A DNA stretch of 64,000 bases, taken from positions 62,001 through 126,000 of the forward strand of contig SUWW01000001.1 in the NCBI GenBank assembly GCA_015061285.1, in the 5' to 3' direction. The notes beneath the pieces were generated by a model. The model was given only the letters and a program-made list of their open reading frames with translations, was not told the DNA's origin and ran no database searches. Positions 57,096 through 63,180 of this stretch are shown one piece after another. The position numbers were made by a program, and so were the translations under genes. The stretch is from Bacteroidales bacterium (GTDB taxonomy: Bacteria; Bacteroidota; Bacteroidia; Bacteroidales; Marinilabiliaceae). How positions within the stretch are numbered: position 1 is the first letter of the stretch; the number at the start of each line of letters is the position of its first letter.

Positions 57096-57136
57096 CAAGT
57101 GGCATTCTCTCATAGAAGAGCGTGCTACTTGTTTTT
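57096..57136 (+). terminator. Terminator-like hairpin in the leader of the TonB-dependent receptor gene
   Basis: CAAGTGGCA (57096-57104) pairs with TGCTACTTG (57123-57131, one G-T pair), with an inner CTCT/AGAG pairing, and is followed by five T. It is 32 bases before the start codon and lies after the predicted promoter, so it could act as an attenuator. Confidence 0.6.
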
Positions 57137-57167
57137 CGTTTTAGTTATAAAAAACACATTACAGATT

Positions 57168-59573
57168 ATGACACACTTAAGAACATTATTAGCTACTATT
57201 ATTCTATCAAGCAATATAGCAATATCCAACGCTGAGACATTACGCGGTCGCATAACCGATGCCAACACAGGAGAGCCCCTCATTGGCGCTACGGTGAGAA
57301 TTGTAGAATTATCGGGAGTAGGTGGCGTAGCCGATTTCGATGGTAATTATACTATCAATATTGAACGTGGCGGACGATACACCATAGAGGCAAATTTCGT
57401 AGGATACGAACCTATGATAATGAAGGAGATTCTGGTGTCGGGCGCAAAAGAGTGTGTAATAGATTTTTTGCTGCGCGAAGATACTCACCAACTTGGCGAA
57501 GTGGTGGTGAAGCCTCGCATAAACAAACTTGCTACAGTCAACCCTAACGTGCTAACTGGCGGCGTGATGCTATCGATGGAAGAAGCAACGCGTTTTGCTG
57601 GTGGCTACAACGATCCTGCGCGTCTTGTTATGGCCTACGCTGGTGTGTCGGGCGAGAGTGATGGCAGCGGTTTGTCGGTGCATGGCAATGCTCCTGAACG
57701 TATGCAATATCGCATCGAGGGCGTGGAAGTGTTCACACCAAATCACTACAACGACTTGTGGAATGCTGGGGCTGGATTGGTGAGCGCTCTCAATGCCAAC
57801 GTTATTGGCAATAGCGACTTCTTTACTTCGGCTTTCAATGCCAACTACTCCAACGCTCTCGGCGGCGTGTTCGATGTGAAAATGCGACCTGGCAACAACA
57901 CAAAACATGAAAATATTCTTCAAATTGGCTCTACGTCGGAGGAGCTCACTCTTGAAGGACCTATTTCTAAGGAGCACAAGTCGAGCTACATAATAAACTA
58001 TCGTTACGGTTTTTCTACATTAGTCGACCAATTAGGACTCATCGACACCGACGGTGCACACTTAGGCTTTCAAGATTTTTCTATGAAGCTCAATTTCCCA
58101 ACAAAGATGGGCTCAATTTCGATTTTTGGCCTCGGCTTTCACGATTCTACTTACGACGATAGAATGGAAATCGACGATGTTCATTCGGCCTACGATGCTT
58201 CGGACACCGATGGCAAGTTGTCGCACATCTTGGCTGGTGTATCATACAAATTGCGCACAAGCAACAAATGGTCGTGGTCGGCTACGCTTGCCTACAACAT
58301 GCAGCACATCGGTATAGATACATACTACTATGGCTTGCAGCGCAACGATGACGGCACTCTGAAAGATCCTCTCACTTACGAAGAACCAGAGAATAAATAC
58401 CTCTTCAGCAAACAGAAGCAAAACGAAGACAGAATACTCTTCAGCACCGAACTTTCGAAGCAGATTTCACCTTTGTGGTTCTTTATGATTGGTACTGAAT
58501 ATTCGCATCGCGCGTTCAACCTAAACTATCGTTCTGTCGACTATGTATATGCACCCGAAAGCACAATGCAGGAGTACACCAATATGAAAGACAATACCAG
58601 TTTGATGAATATCTACTGGCAAAACCTCCTCAAATTCAACGAGAAGTTTAGCATATCTACTGGCATCGCCTTCAACTACTTCAAGTTGTCGAAAGATTTA
58701 TCCGTTGAACCTCGATTCAGTCTGAAATGGGAACCAACCGACAACAACTCCTTCTCGATGGGCTACGGCTTGCACTCTATGACCGAGAAGCTCGACACTT
58801 ATTTCTATAAAGATGAGCAAGGAGACCTTGTCAACAAAGACCTTGGCATGACGAAATCGCACCATCTGTTGTTCTCCTATATGTATAAAATCAACGACAA
58901 CCTCAATGTGCGCGCTAATGCTTTCTATCAATATGGATTCAACACTCCTGTGGGTGTGAATGGCAGCACATATTGCGTTACTAATCGACTTTTTGCCTAC
59001 ACCGATGAACCGCTATCGTCGAAAGGCAACACGCGTAATTATGGAGCCGACATAACTTTGGAACACTACATGAGCCGAGGATTCTATGGACAAACAAACT
59101 TTTCGCTCTATAAATCGGAATACAGAGGTTTGGACAAAATATGGCGCAACCAACTCTACGACCGTGGATTCATGTATAAAATCTTAGCTGGAAAAGAATG
59201 GATGGTCGGTCGCGAAAAGAAAAACGTGCTTAATGTCAGCGCTAAATACTCCGTTCAGGGCGGATTGCGCTACACTCCTATCGATGTGGACCAGATGAAC
59301 CAAAACCTCGATAATGGTCTAATAGACGAAACACCTGTATACAAAGAAAATGAGGCCTTCTCGAAGCGCTTCGATGCCACTGGTATGATTGATTTAACTA
59401 TAAGCTTCAAAATCAATTGCAAACGCGTGAGCCACACCATAGCTTTCGAAGGTGTGAACATTCTTGATGCCAAAGCTCCTCTGGCTCAACGTTTCGACAT
59501 GGGAACGCGCACCATACGCACCGAAGAGAGTGGCATTTCTCTACCTAACATATTCTATAGGTTAGATTTCTAA
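57168..59573 (+). CDS. TonB-dependent receptor (not SusC-type)
   Basis: ATG 57168 begins a signal peptide ([22 protein letters not shown]); the longer frame to 57099 would read through the leader hairpin. The ~801-residue protein has a carboxypeptidase-D-regulatory-like N-terminal domain ([16 protein letters not shown]), a plug ([39 protein letters not shown]) and a 22-strand-type barrel ending [13 protein letters not shown]. The ligand is unknown; there is no SusD partner, so a siderophore, cofactor or metal complex is as likely as a glycan. The ubiquitin-like gene lies 142 bases downstream on the same strand. Confidence 0.9.
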
Positions 59574-59715: not shown

Positions 59716-60759
59716 ATGAAAAGATTCATTACACTATTCTTTGCCGCGCTCATGAGCGTAGGCATGAGTTGGGCGATGCAGATTTATATCGACGTGCCCG
59801 AACAAGATCTGCTCGCACTTGATGTTGAGCCAAGCGATAATATCGAAAACGTTAAGGGCAAGATTCAAGACAAGACGAGTATCCCTCCTGAGTACCAGAC
59901 GCTCTATTTCAATTCAACCTTATTGGAGGATGATCGCACGCTCGCGGACTACAACATCCAGAAAGAGAGTACGCTCCAGCTGGCTATCAGCGGCGGTTCA
60001 ACGCCGACGACTTGGACTTCGCTCTCAGTGGGGGATGTGATCAAAGTAGGCGATAAGATAGAGGTACCTGCAGAAGGTGATGGATCATGGGGTATCAATG
60101 GTTACGTCCTTAGAAATACTTGGGGACCATACGAGTTGATTCGTGCCGATATTTATCAGGAAAGTGTCTTTGATGATCCTGTGGTAACCGAAACAGAAGA
60201 TGGAGCCTTTTACGTATTCAAGGCTGAGAACAATGATTTCTATCCATTATCCAATCTTGCTAAAGGAGAAGGATTAGTGGTTACGGGAATTTCGGACGGT
60301 CTCGTAGTAACGGCCGCTGTGAATAAAGAGTTTACGGTTGCCGTTCACGAAAAAGCCGATGATCCGACTACCTACACCCTCACACTCGACGTGAACGATT
60401 TAGCAATGGGCTCGGTAATAGTAGAAGGCGAAGGCATAGTAGATAACCAAGACGGCACCTACACCGTAGCTGAGGGCACCGAAGTGACGATAGTAGCACA
60501 GCCAGCCGAAGGCTATTACCTCGCAAGCTGGAGCAACGACGCCGCTCTGAACGAAGACGACACTCAAACCATCACCATAACCGACAACACAACCGTCACC
60601 GCAGTATTTGCTGCCGATGTGGTTACGCCAGTGGCTAACGTCGATGTAGAGAATGCCGAAACGGAAGTTTGGTTCGACCTCTCAGGTCGCCGCCTACAAG
60701 GCAAACCTTCTACGCCAGGCCTATACATACGCAATGGCAAGAAAGCGCTTGTGAAGTAA
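59716..60759 (+). CDS. Secreted ubiquitin-like protein with InlB-type repeat and sorting-type tail
   Basis: The 347-residue product has a 20-residue signal peptide ([20 protein letters not shown]). Cleavage would leave Met21 as the new N-terminus, matching Met1 of ubiquitin. Residues 21-94 align with eukaryotic ubiquitin at 42 of 74 positions by my hand count ([18 protein letters not shown], then [14 protein letters not shown]). Lys27, 29, 33 and 63 equivalents are kept; Lys6, 11 and 48 are Asp, Asp and Thr. The domain ends in Gly-Gly (residues 93-94), two residues shorter than ubiquitin, and continues into an unknown domain (~100-220). A divergent InlB-like repeat (~225-310, ending [14 protein letters not shown]) and a Prevotella/T9SS-style tail ([13 protein letters not shown], then [13 protein letters not shown]) follow. 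Known precedent is the secreted ubiquitin of Bacteroides fragilis. Acquisition from a eukaryote is inferred. Confidence 0.93.
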
Positions 60760-60869: not shown

Positions 60870-61018
60870 TTTGTTGGGAAGAGGAACACAGATGACACAG
60901 ATTCGAACGGATTTTTGATGGAGTGGGATTTTCCCCCCCCCGATTCACGAACGGCTGAATTCAAATCCGCCTGAACCTACGGTTTACACCCCAGCCATTA
61001 TAACCATCAAAATAGTGT

Positions 61019-61420
61019 TGTCATGTTGAGCGGAGCGAAACATCCCATCACTCTAAGAGATTGGCTTGCGCCGAACTTACGTTTCTTCGCTTCGCTCGGG
61101 ATGACACTCATGGTGTTATGCATAGCCACGAAGTGGCGACACATCTTAGGCTGGGGTGTAAACCCCTGCCATTATAACCATCAAAAGAGTGTTGTCATGT
61201 TGAGCGGAGCGAAACATCCCATCACTATAGGAGATCCTTCGCTTCGCTCAGGATGACAACCTATTTAGGACGTAGCGAAACGCTACGCCCAACTTACAAA
61301 CAAAAAAAATCTGCGTAAATCTGTTCAATCCGTTGAATCTGTGTTCTAACAAGGCTGCCATAATATGACAGCCCTACACCCCAACCGACATACTACACTA
61401 CACTCTACACTCTACGCTCT
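61019..61420. repeat. Long direct repeat, copy 1 (composite of small inverted repeats)
   Basis: The ~400 bases recur at 62,768-63,180. They contain two GTCAT-TGAGCG..CGCTC-GGATGAC hairpin elements (61,019-61,106 and 61,194-61,259, the second with an internal deletion), a spacer including GGCTGGGGTGTAAACCCC, and a GGCTGCC..GACAGCCC-type hairpin near 61,352-61,375. The interval 60,870-61,018 before it holds no gene and a partial repeat at its end (TTTACACCCCAGCC). Confidence 0.85.
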
Positions 61421-61602: not shown

Positions 61603-61808
61603 GAAAGTTCGCGGGAGGTTACGGCAAGGTTTTGTAACGATGACAAAAGTTCGCCGGAGGTTACGGCGAGGTTTTGTAACGACGCAAAAGTTCGCGGGAG
61701 GTTACGGCAAAGTTTTGTAATGATGACAAAGGTTCGCCTGAGGTTACGGCGAGGTTTTGTAACGACGCGAAAGTTTGCCGGAGGTTACGGCGAAGTTTTG
61801 TAACGAAC
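61603..61808. repeat. Tandem array of five ~41-42 bp units
   Basis: Units alternate between 42 and 41 bases and share AAAGTTCGC, GGAGGTTACGGC and GTTTTGTAACGA; odd units share one variant set and even units another, giving an ~83-bp higher-order period. Each unit contains GGTTAC and GTAAC as a weak inverted pair. There are no unique spacers, so it is not CRISPR. The short reading frame across it (61,546-61,803) has repeated arginine/serine peptides and no family signature. The sequence from 61,421 to 61,602 holds no gene. Confidence 0.88.
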
Positions 61809-61865
61809 AGAATACCCAACTTTTCAATGTCACTTTTTAGTTAACCATATAAAAATCTTGAAATT

Positions 61866-62606
61866 ATGGCAGAAAATAATCAACTAAACACAGCGTGGTT
61901 GGCTCGATTGACCAACCCGCATCACGATGGCACTACGCAACAGATAGACGACATCGTGGCAAAATTCGTAACCGACAATAGCAAACTGAAAGAGAAGATG
62001 ACTGTCTTGCATCAATGCCGCCAACAGGAGGACGATGTGTGGCAGAAATCGCAGCGCGACCCTGTGGTGAAGCAGCTTGAAATTGCCGACAAACGTCAGG
62101 ATAATTACATAGTAGCTACACGCTACATAATTATGGCGTATGCCAGTTTGCCCGACACGGAGGCCACGAAGCTTCAAGCTATGCAGTGCGACCAAGTGTT
62201 CAAAGATTTCGACCTCCGAACAAATGAAGCCTACGGCGCAGAGGCGGATAAGATTCTACAGATGGGCGACCGCCTGCGGGCGCAAGAGGCGTTCCTGACC
62301 GAGGTGGGTGCGTGGGCGTTCTACCAGAAGGCGGCTGAGGCTGCACGCGAGGTGCGCGACCTATTGAGCGAGCGCGCTAAGACGAAGGGCGAGTACGTGA
62401 AGAGCGAAATGAAAGATGCTCGTCGCGCTACCGACGTGGCTGTGGCCGACCTCTACAAGATGCTTATGGCTATGCAGGAGCTTCTGCCAACTGACGAACT
62501 CACTGCTCTCGTCAGCCAATTGAAAGGCGTGGAAATCTACGCGCGTCAGTATTATATAGACAAGCCCGCGAAGAGCGACGAGGAAGAGACGAAAACTGAG
62601 AATTAG
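61866..62606 (+). CDS. DUF6261-like cytoplasmic protein of unknown function
   Basis: The 246-residue protein has no signal peptide and is mostly helical with charged heptads (KQLEIADKRQDNYIVATRYIIMAYASL, then AEAAREVRDLLSERAKTKGEY). Overall length and pattern resemble the DUF6261 family that is frequent in Bacteroidales, but I am not certain of the family. It lies between the tandem array (57 bases upstream) and a palindrome that starts directly after the stop codon, and between two copies of a ~400-bp direct repeat. The array may therefore be part of its 5' region. Confidence 0.75.
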   Translation: MAENNQLNTAWLARLTNPHHDGTTQQIDDIVAKFVTDNSKLKEKMTVLHQCRQQEDDVWQKSQRDPVVKQLEIADKRQDNYIVATRYIIMAYASLPDTEATKLQAMQCDQVFKDFDLRTNEAYGAEADKILQMGDRLRAQEAFLTEVGAWAFYQKAAEAAREVRDLLSERAKTKGEYVKSEMKDARRATDVAVADLYKMLMAMQELLPTDELTALVSQLKGVEIYARQYYIDKPAKSDEEETKTEN

Positions 62607-62767: not shown

Positions 62768-63180
62768 TTGTCATTCTGAGCGAAGCGAAGAATCCCATCA
62801 CTCTAAGAGATTGGCTTACGCCGAACTTACGTTCCTTCGCTTCGCTCAGGATGACACTCATGGTGTTATGCATAGCCACGAAGTGGCGACACATCTTAGG
62901 CTGGGGTGTAAACCCCTGCCATTATAACCATCAAAATAGTGTTGTCATGTTGAGCGGAGCGAAACATCCCATCACTATAGGAGATTGGCTTGCGCCGAAC
63001 TTACGTTTCTTCGCTTCGCTCAGGATGACAACCTATTTAGGACGTAGCGAAACGCTACGCCCAACTTACAGATTTTCAGGATTTATAATCTGCGTAAATC
63101 TGTTCAATCCGTTGAATCTGTGTTCTAACAAGGCTGCCGTGATACGACAGCCCTACATACTACACTACACACTACACTCT
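62768..63180. repeat. Long direct repeat, copy 2
   Basis: Near-identical in order and sequence to 61,019-61,420, with both hairpin elements complete (62,768-62,855 and 62,943-63,030). A third element in copy 1 is shortened by ~24 bases. Confidence 0.85.

Follow-up and report, generated by a model that had tools for sequence, protein, structure and literature searches.

The window, as we call the whole 64,000-nucleotide stretch of Bacteroidales DNA analysed here, contains a gene for an exported protein with an N-terminal copy of eukaryotic ubiquitin, followed by an InlB-type repeat and a genus-shared tail. We propose, with a probability of roughly 0.55, that the ubiquitin fold is a non-conjugating binding head on this exported, tail-bearing surface protein. 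On this view the gene product is modular and exported by Sec, and its mature form starts with a ubiquitin fold of eukaryotic descent. Judging from the motif, signal peptidase I would expose Met1, after which the tail would most likely direct export by the type 9 secretion system (T9SS) to the cell surface or the medium. The ubiquitin would be neither conjugated nor meant for release, and may act as a compact, stable, non-enzymatic head for binding on a swappable scaffold. Its canonical Ile44 face appears to have been rebuilt in the window clade into a common new surface, which would fit a new partner; that the head binds such a partner is our guess. The gene and its features, in window positions, are as follows.

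59716-60759, + strand: open reading frame (ORF) of 347 amino acids with an ATG start (sequence, ORF translation)
59716..59775, + strand: signal peptide, residues 1-20, ending Ser-Trp-Ala (sequence and loose cleavage motif)
59776..59988, + strand: ubiquitin domain, residues 21-91, corresponding to ubiquitin 1-71 (PF00240, AF2, Foldseek)
59989..59997, + strand: Ser-Gly-Gly at ubiquitin positions 72-74, the glycines out of register with Gly75-Gly76 (ungapped alignment)
59998..60390, + strand: middle region without a Pfam family (Pfam scan; 86% identical copy in a ubiquitin-less protein of its own genome)
60430..60615, + strand: divergent InlB B-repeat, residues 239-300 (PF18998, E 1.7e-10)
60652..60756, + strand: C-terminal sorting-type tail, beginning DLSGRR (recurrence in its own genome and genus)
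57099..59573, + strand: upstream gene in the same orientation, resembling an outer-membrane receptor by eye (sole Pfam match CarboxypepD_reg)

A eukaryotic-type ubiquitin heads the protein

After the predicted cut, the mature protein has 327 residues and begins MQIYID, its Met being residue 21 of the precursor. The Pfam ubiquitin family PF00240 matched residues 26-92 with E 2.9e-17 and 62.6 bits (curated cut-off 25.4), and a Rad60-SLD Pfam match covered residues 21-91. When PDB sequences were searched with the mature domain, the best matches were ubiquitins over query residues 1-71; of 330 sequences recovered at E 0.001, the 60 listed were ubiquitins, polyubiquitins, ubiquitin fusions or engineered variants. 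Ungapped alignment with human ubiquitin gave 42 identical residues in 71 (59%), with 29 positions differing and none of the 42 beyond position 71, which bears out an earlier count, made from the sequence alone, of 42 identities in 74 positions.

The AF2 model of the mature protein, from an alignment with 31 other rows, had a mean pLDDT of 65.3 overall. Blocks over residues 1-70 reached 92-97 and followed the strand and helix order of ubiquitin; residues 73-165 stayed below 50, and the middle region was left unresolved by the model. Among the 50 Foldseek matches listed, all were ubiquitins or ubiquitin-containing chains, and single-domain ubiquitin chains mostly gave ~0.7-1.0 A over 71 columns with TMt ~0.9-0.96. 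The domain is predicted to have the beta-grasp ubiquitin fold, the absence of which would have refuted the sequence-only reading. That reading had also taken the domain for eukaryotic-type ubiquitin rather than an ancient bacterial beta-grasp protein, the latter being its other refuting outcome, and the Pfam, PDB and Foldseek matches, being ubiquitin itself, agree.

Met1 lies at the predicted mature N-terminus

As the cleavage motif stands directly before Met1, the predicted cut after Ala20 would place Met1 at the mature N-terminus, in keeping with the earlier suggestion that cleavage there regenerates the ubiquitin N-terminus. We then considered this junction across 87 entries (92 ORFs minus five duplicate rows, window included), in 71 of which Met1 directly followed a hydrophobic stretch with a cleavage motif. 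Some of the other 16 miss only the distance rule (for example L034 and L049); the rest are internal, cut off or without Met1. The junction control set comprised the 78 entries, window included, in which 20 or more residues precede Met1. By a rule-of-thumb motif, the loose form stood exactly before Met1 in 76 of the 78 and fitted 11 to 49 at offsets -12 to -1, and the strict form did so in 60, with at most 13 at control offsets. Since the seeds bias the scan towards sequences resembling the window domain, we also inspected copies that the HMM had found in the phylum sample, and the same junction was present in L124, L125 (the L067 gene), L126, both L127 genes and L128. Two copies from the order sample (L091, L092) are diverged internal ubiquitin domains.

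The C-terminus is out of register and the Ile44 face is replaced

Human ubiquitin ends LVLRLRGG; the window domain ends LAISGG. Because the window domain is two residues shorter, its Gly-Gly falls at ubiquitin positions 73-74, preceded by Ala-Ile-Ser and not by Leu-Arg-Leu-Arg, and a two-residue gap in the alignment is needed to bring it to 75-76. Arg72, Leu73 and Arg74, which in ubiquitin are tied to E1 and deubiquitinase recognition, are absent, and there is no LRLRGG with Gly-Gly at 75-76. The two glycines described earlier as a retained diglycine are thus present, but out of register and behind Ala-Ile-Ser, so that 'retained' misleads. Across the relatives, RLRGG persists in 2 of 86 domains (L054, L065). 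We rejected the Gly-Gly as a kept conjugation site on its register and the missing Arg72-Leu73-Arg74, although all four members of the window clade (window, L011, L012, L013) keep ISGG, even with different downstream sequence in L012 and L013. This clade-wide ISGG speaks against pure accident, and we count it against our own explanation.

For the surface, we took positions 8, 42, 44, 47, 48, 49, 68 and 70 to be the Ile44 face, and 15 ubiquitin positions to be the core. On this list, all eight face positions of the window domain differ from human ubiquitin (P 0.0016 among 56 non-core positions); 13 of the 15 core positions are kept and two differ. The Pro8, Tyr44, Ala70 and Thr48 changes and the kept Lys63, as given in the sequence-only reading, all recur in the alignment. 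The face is likewise changed at 8/8 positions in L011 and L012 and at 7/8 in L013, which keeps Val70, and the four clade members have 49 invariant positions in common, 20 of them changed from human.

Across 86 domains (weighted to ~17 effective), mean identity to human ubiquitin was 0.87 in the core, 0.44 on the Ile44 face, 0.67 at other exposed positions and 0.21 at residues 71-76 (face versus other exposed, P 0.005); positions 57-64 were excluded from these groups because the scan seeds bias them. In the 16 HMM-found domains, a set to which the window domain, the copy from its sister and all four domains of a single G059 protein belong but not the diverged L091-L093, the face stood at 0.58 and other exposed positions at 0.60 (P 0.64), with 0.20 at residues 71-76. 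The core of this set was at 0.82, and non-core positions of 54-66 were at 0.80, above the other exposed positions (P 0.001). The seed-found set thus shows the Ile44 face being lost generally, but the HMM-found set does not, and we claim the loss for the window clade only. We also rejected the idea that Ala57 is shared through common origin. As ADYNIQKE was among the scan seeds, this sharing is a search bias, and 7 of the 16 HMM-found domains (44%) have Ser57.

The window ubiquitin can probably no longer tag other proteins. With the Gly-Gly displaced, Arg72, Leu73 and Arg74 gone and the Ile44 face entirely replaced, E1 activation or deubiquitinase cleavage of the domain appears unlikely. The UQ_con profile (E2) found no match in the source genome; 14 control genomes were silent too.

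Exported ubiquitins recur across bacterial phyla

A contig scan with peptide seeds such as ADYNIQKE gave 365 stretches, 177 of which were confirmed as relatives. The best 80 of the 177 were retained and cover about a dozen phyla, and the same design occurs in Bacteroidota, Bacillota, Pseudomonadota, Verrucomicrobiota, Actinomycetota and others. Going by record titles, we count 14 named-strain loci among the 80 retained; several relatives are free-living marine or freshwater organisms, judged by their names, and the nearest named record (L011) is from sheep rumen. With the source genome counted, the HMM found ubiquitin in 6 of 71 genomes of the taxonomic family and 4 of 15 of the genus, in 4 of 393 in the order sample (two over the cut-off) and in 6 of 395 in the phylum sample. 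Ubiquitin domains also occur in archaeal bins (Methanosarcinales, Methanothrix; L041, L052, L083), and in L041 and L052 a signal peptide stands directly before Met1.

All of the 82 proteins scanned for architecture (82 of 87; five long ones were left out) match ubiquitin. A T9SS tail was present in 10, InlB repeats in 10, an autotransporter barrel in nine, SLH in three, IPTL-CTERM in three and SdrD_B in two. Very different partners thus follow the ubiquitin head across the relatives, and the anchors (T9SS tails, autotransporter barrels, IPTL-CTERM) are lineage-specific. Two proteins from the window's taxonomic family (L002, 183 aa; L003, 179 aa) consist of signal peptide, ubiquitin and T9SS tail with nothing else recognised, as do L048 and L074, and eight autotransporters scanned singly have no recognised passenger other than ubiquitin. 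A 369-aa protein from the same genus (G059; L121, 6213-7322) carries ubiquitin-type domains in a tandem of four, two or more of which have diverged strongly, and ends in a sorting-type tail; internal ubiquitin domains occur in L004, L056 and L077.

Two adjacent stand-alone exported ubiquitins, ~76 residues after the signal peptide, were found in one genome (G771; L127, L129); in design they look like the Bacteroides fragilis ubiquitin Ubb (BfUbb), and one has a Cys near its C-terminus. The complete genome of Verrucomicrobia bacterium IMCC26134 has two adjacent exported ubiquitin-headed genes (L060, 5929-6639 and 6998-7708).

At E 1e-5, 3 of 72,556 plasmid records and 0 of 50,697 phage records matched, and on the latter result we rejected phage carriage. 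The complete and predicted mobilizable plasmid pRUMAL01 of R. albus 7 encodes a signal peptide and ubiquitin followed by a further domain (L132, 4923-5663), which neighbouring ubiquitin-less proteins resemble by eye; AAA ATPase and DDE integrase/transposase genes lie near the ubiquitin gene. Because of this complete plasmid, the named strains among the 80 loci (14/80) and the bacterial-type signal peptides, we rejected eukaryotic contamination of metagenome bins as an explanation of the family.

A tree of 95 domains over 71 columns was built by a quick method with no outgroup, leaving out duplicates, L083, L125, L129 and L091-L093. The window, L011, L012 and L013 grouped at 97, with gut-type Bacillota copies and L015 weakly attached (81-86), and human ubiquitin sat on a zero-length branch. 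The 71 columns resolve little, with 60 of 91 inner branches open. Phylum labels (12 phyla from record titles, 16 rows unlabelled) needed 33 changes, the minimum possible being 11; shuffled labels needed 42.6 on average, and 0 of 200 shuffles were as low as 33. The labels are therefore clustered, yet by no means confined to a single clade per phylum. Such a pattern agrees with some exchange between phyla and proves neither the direction nor the number of transfers.

Tail, middle region and gene neighbours

The source genome encodes the T9SS translocon SprA (2541.6 bits), and type A sorting tails match at 18 other places in it, 16 of them over the cut-off. The window tail had no match to the type A profile TIGR04183 at E up to 1, where weak matches may be filtered. 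Tails of the window type occur at nine places in the source genome (window included) and in 11 of 15 genomes of the genus, and they end four of the ORFs that were read. In an hhalign comparison, eight pattern-picked window-type tails, two of them copies of one G057 tail, aligned with five type A tails at a probability of 50 over 26 columns. We count this middling value and the missing TIGR04183 match against our explanation. Export of the window protein by the T9SS appears likely from this context, and a surface location is what its tail would suggest. The C-terminal extension with InlB repeat and sorting-type tail, which the sequence-only reading had set against B. fragilis Ubb, is supported, the tail being common to genome and genus.

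Pfam gave nothing significant in the middle of the ORF. This region recurs, 86% identical, in a 930-aa protein of the same genome that has the same tail, a different N-terminal half and no ubiquitin, and in which Pfam gives only a sub-threshold F5/8 C match; the ubiquitin head is therefore swappable. No homologue of the middle region was found outside its own genome and genus in the order sample of 393 genomes. A sister species (G057) has the complete gene, with 108 extra residues before the InlB repeat. Between the window genome (G000) and G057, the ubiquitin part has 0 synonymous and 6 non-synonymous differences and the middle region 8 and 6 (Fisher P 0.042 versus the ubiquitin part). The pattern in the ubiquitin part is only a hint of adaptation in so small a sample, and is also compatible with loose constraint.

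The receptor-like upstream gene stands in the same order in the sister species (L117) and was not seen at L012 or L013. Of the loci read, the sister species alone repeats this order; we therefore rejected an operon with the gene and list it only as a neighbour.

Elsewhere in the window, a DUF6261 gene is flanked on both sides by a 218-nt direct repeat (61018-61235 and 62768-62985; 96% identical) with TTCGCTTCGCTCAGGATGACA-type inverted stretches, and also by identical pieces at 61237-61298 and 63009-63070. A tandem array with 41-42 nt steps (61604-61811) stops before the DUF6261 gene at 61866.

Possible roles: a binding head, a cap, an antibacterial factor or a mimic

Two points make us prefer a binding head: some of the proteins have no recognised cargo but ubiquitin, a case that a protective cap leaves unexplained, and the rebuilt face is common to the clade. 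Ubiquitin is highly stable. As a structural N-terminal cap it would fold fast, resist proteases, hide the mature N-terminus and protect the part downstream, a role that we think improbable even though it agrees with the zero spacer between predicted cleavage and Met1 (76/78 loose, 60/78 strict), with the very different partners behind ubiquitin and with a core that is kept while the C-tail drifts. A cap would account neither for proteins with ubiquitin as their only recognised cargo, nor for the four domains in one protein and the internal domains (L004, L056, L077), nor for the conserved stretch 54-66 of the HMM-found set (0.80 versus 0.60, P 0.001). Just as doubtful, and next in line with the cap, is an antibacterial role in which the exposed ubiquitin, tethered or shed, would inhibit related bacteria. 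BfUbb, which has the same exact junction, inhibits other B. fragilis strains, and the synthetic mature protein suffices, according to the available part of PMC5705921. The distribution of the family is patchy (6/71 family genomes, 6/395 in the phylum sample), G771 has two short stand-alone copies, and the upstream gene is receptor-like, the BSAP toxins having come with receptor orthologues (PMC5705921, same part). BfUbb, however, stands alone, whereas the window domain forms part of a larger protein with a tail and departs from human ubiquitin at 29/71 positions; moreover, the receptor-like gene is shared with the sister species only, and no immunity gene was recognised among the two neighbours scanned.

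Least likely of all, and very improbable in our estimate, is a mimic directed at a host or protist: an E1/E2 decoy, a deubiquitinase substrate or a binder of ubiquitin receptors. The eukaryotic ubiquitin origin, the kept Lys63 and nearby Gly-Gly, and the sheep rumen source of the nearest named record would suit it, as would the inhibition of ubiquitination by BfUbb in vitro described in the portion of PMC3352274 available to us. The sequence-only reading had raised a host-directed mimic, an E1/E2 decoy and a deubiquitinase substrate; these do not sit well with 8/8 changes on the Ile44 face, the loss of Arg72-Leu73-Arg74, the displaced Gly-Gly, RLRGG in only 2/86 domains and relatives of which several are free-living by name.

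Comparison with known systems

In the literature that we found, bacterial ubiquitin that is exported concerns a single species, B. fragilis. Our search, which most subscription papers fall outside, found no account or survey of exported ubiquitins across bacterial phyla, though one may exist in print; in the available text of a 2024 review of ubiquitin evolution (PMC11354881), 'fragilis', 'secreted' and 'signal peptide' do not occur. We give even odds to a broader view, in which exported ubiquitin is a widespread and little recognised extracellular bacterial module: eukaryote-derived, moved between phyla (in one case on a mobilizable plasmid), mostly with Met1 as the mature N-terminus, with lineage-specific anchors and a function other than conjugation, the window protein being a far-evolved example with a rebuilt face. 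Should the head be under selection for a role outside the cell, bacteria would have turned a eukaryotic protein that ranks among the most conserved into a surface module, an idea testable in cultured strains such as Ruminococcus albus.

Like T9SS type A cargo (TIGR04183/PF18962), the window protein has a Sec signal peptide, a modular body and a C-terminal tail, with SprA in the genome; unlike it, it ends in a variant tail that went unrecognised by the type A profile. The secreted ubiquitin of the plant-parasitic nematode Globodera rostochiensis also combines signal peptide, ubiquitin and C-terminal extension, but it is eukaryotic and its extension is cleaved off in the plant, as reported in the excerpted PMC5705921; the window protein has no LRLRGG at that point. 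In the R. albus 7 'ubiquitin family protein' (WP_013483628.1, pRUMAL01), the signal peptide likewise stands directly before Met1 (MQIFVKT) and ubiquitin-less neighbours seem to carry the same downstream domain, although the host is Gram-positive, the downstream domain is another one and the ubiquitin is, by eye, closer to eukaryotic ubiquitin.

The closest precedent for the window protein is B. fragilis Ubb (ubb, BF3883), described in the available portions of PMC3352274 and PMC5705921 as a secreted stand-alone ubiquitin of 76 aa that bears a C-terminal Cys and is 63% identical to the human protein; a later study of B. fragilis is that of Jiang et al. (Nat Microbiol). Both proteins are of eukaryotic type and lack a conjugating C-terminus, and BfUbb is secreted with its Sec signal peptide cut exactly before Met1 (same portions of PMC3352274, PMC5705921), a junction that in the window protein is predicted by motif. 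In contrast to BfUbb, the window domain is 59% identical to human ubiquitin over 71 residues, carries replacements across the Ile44 face and forms the front end of a 347-aa protein that also contains an InlB repeat and a sorting-type tail.
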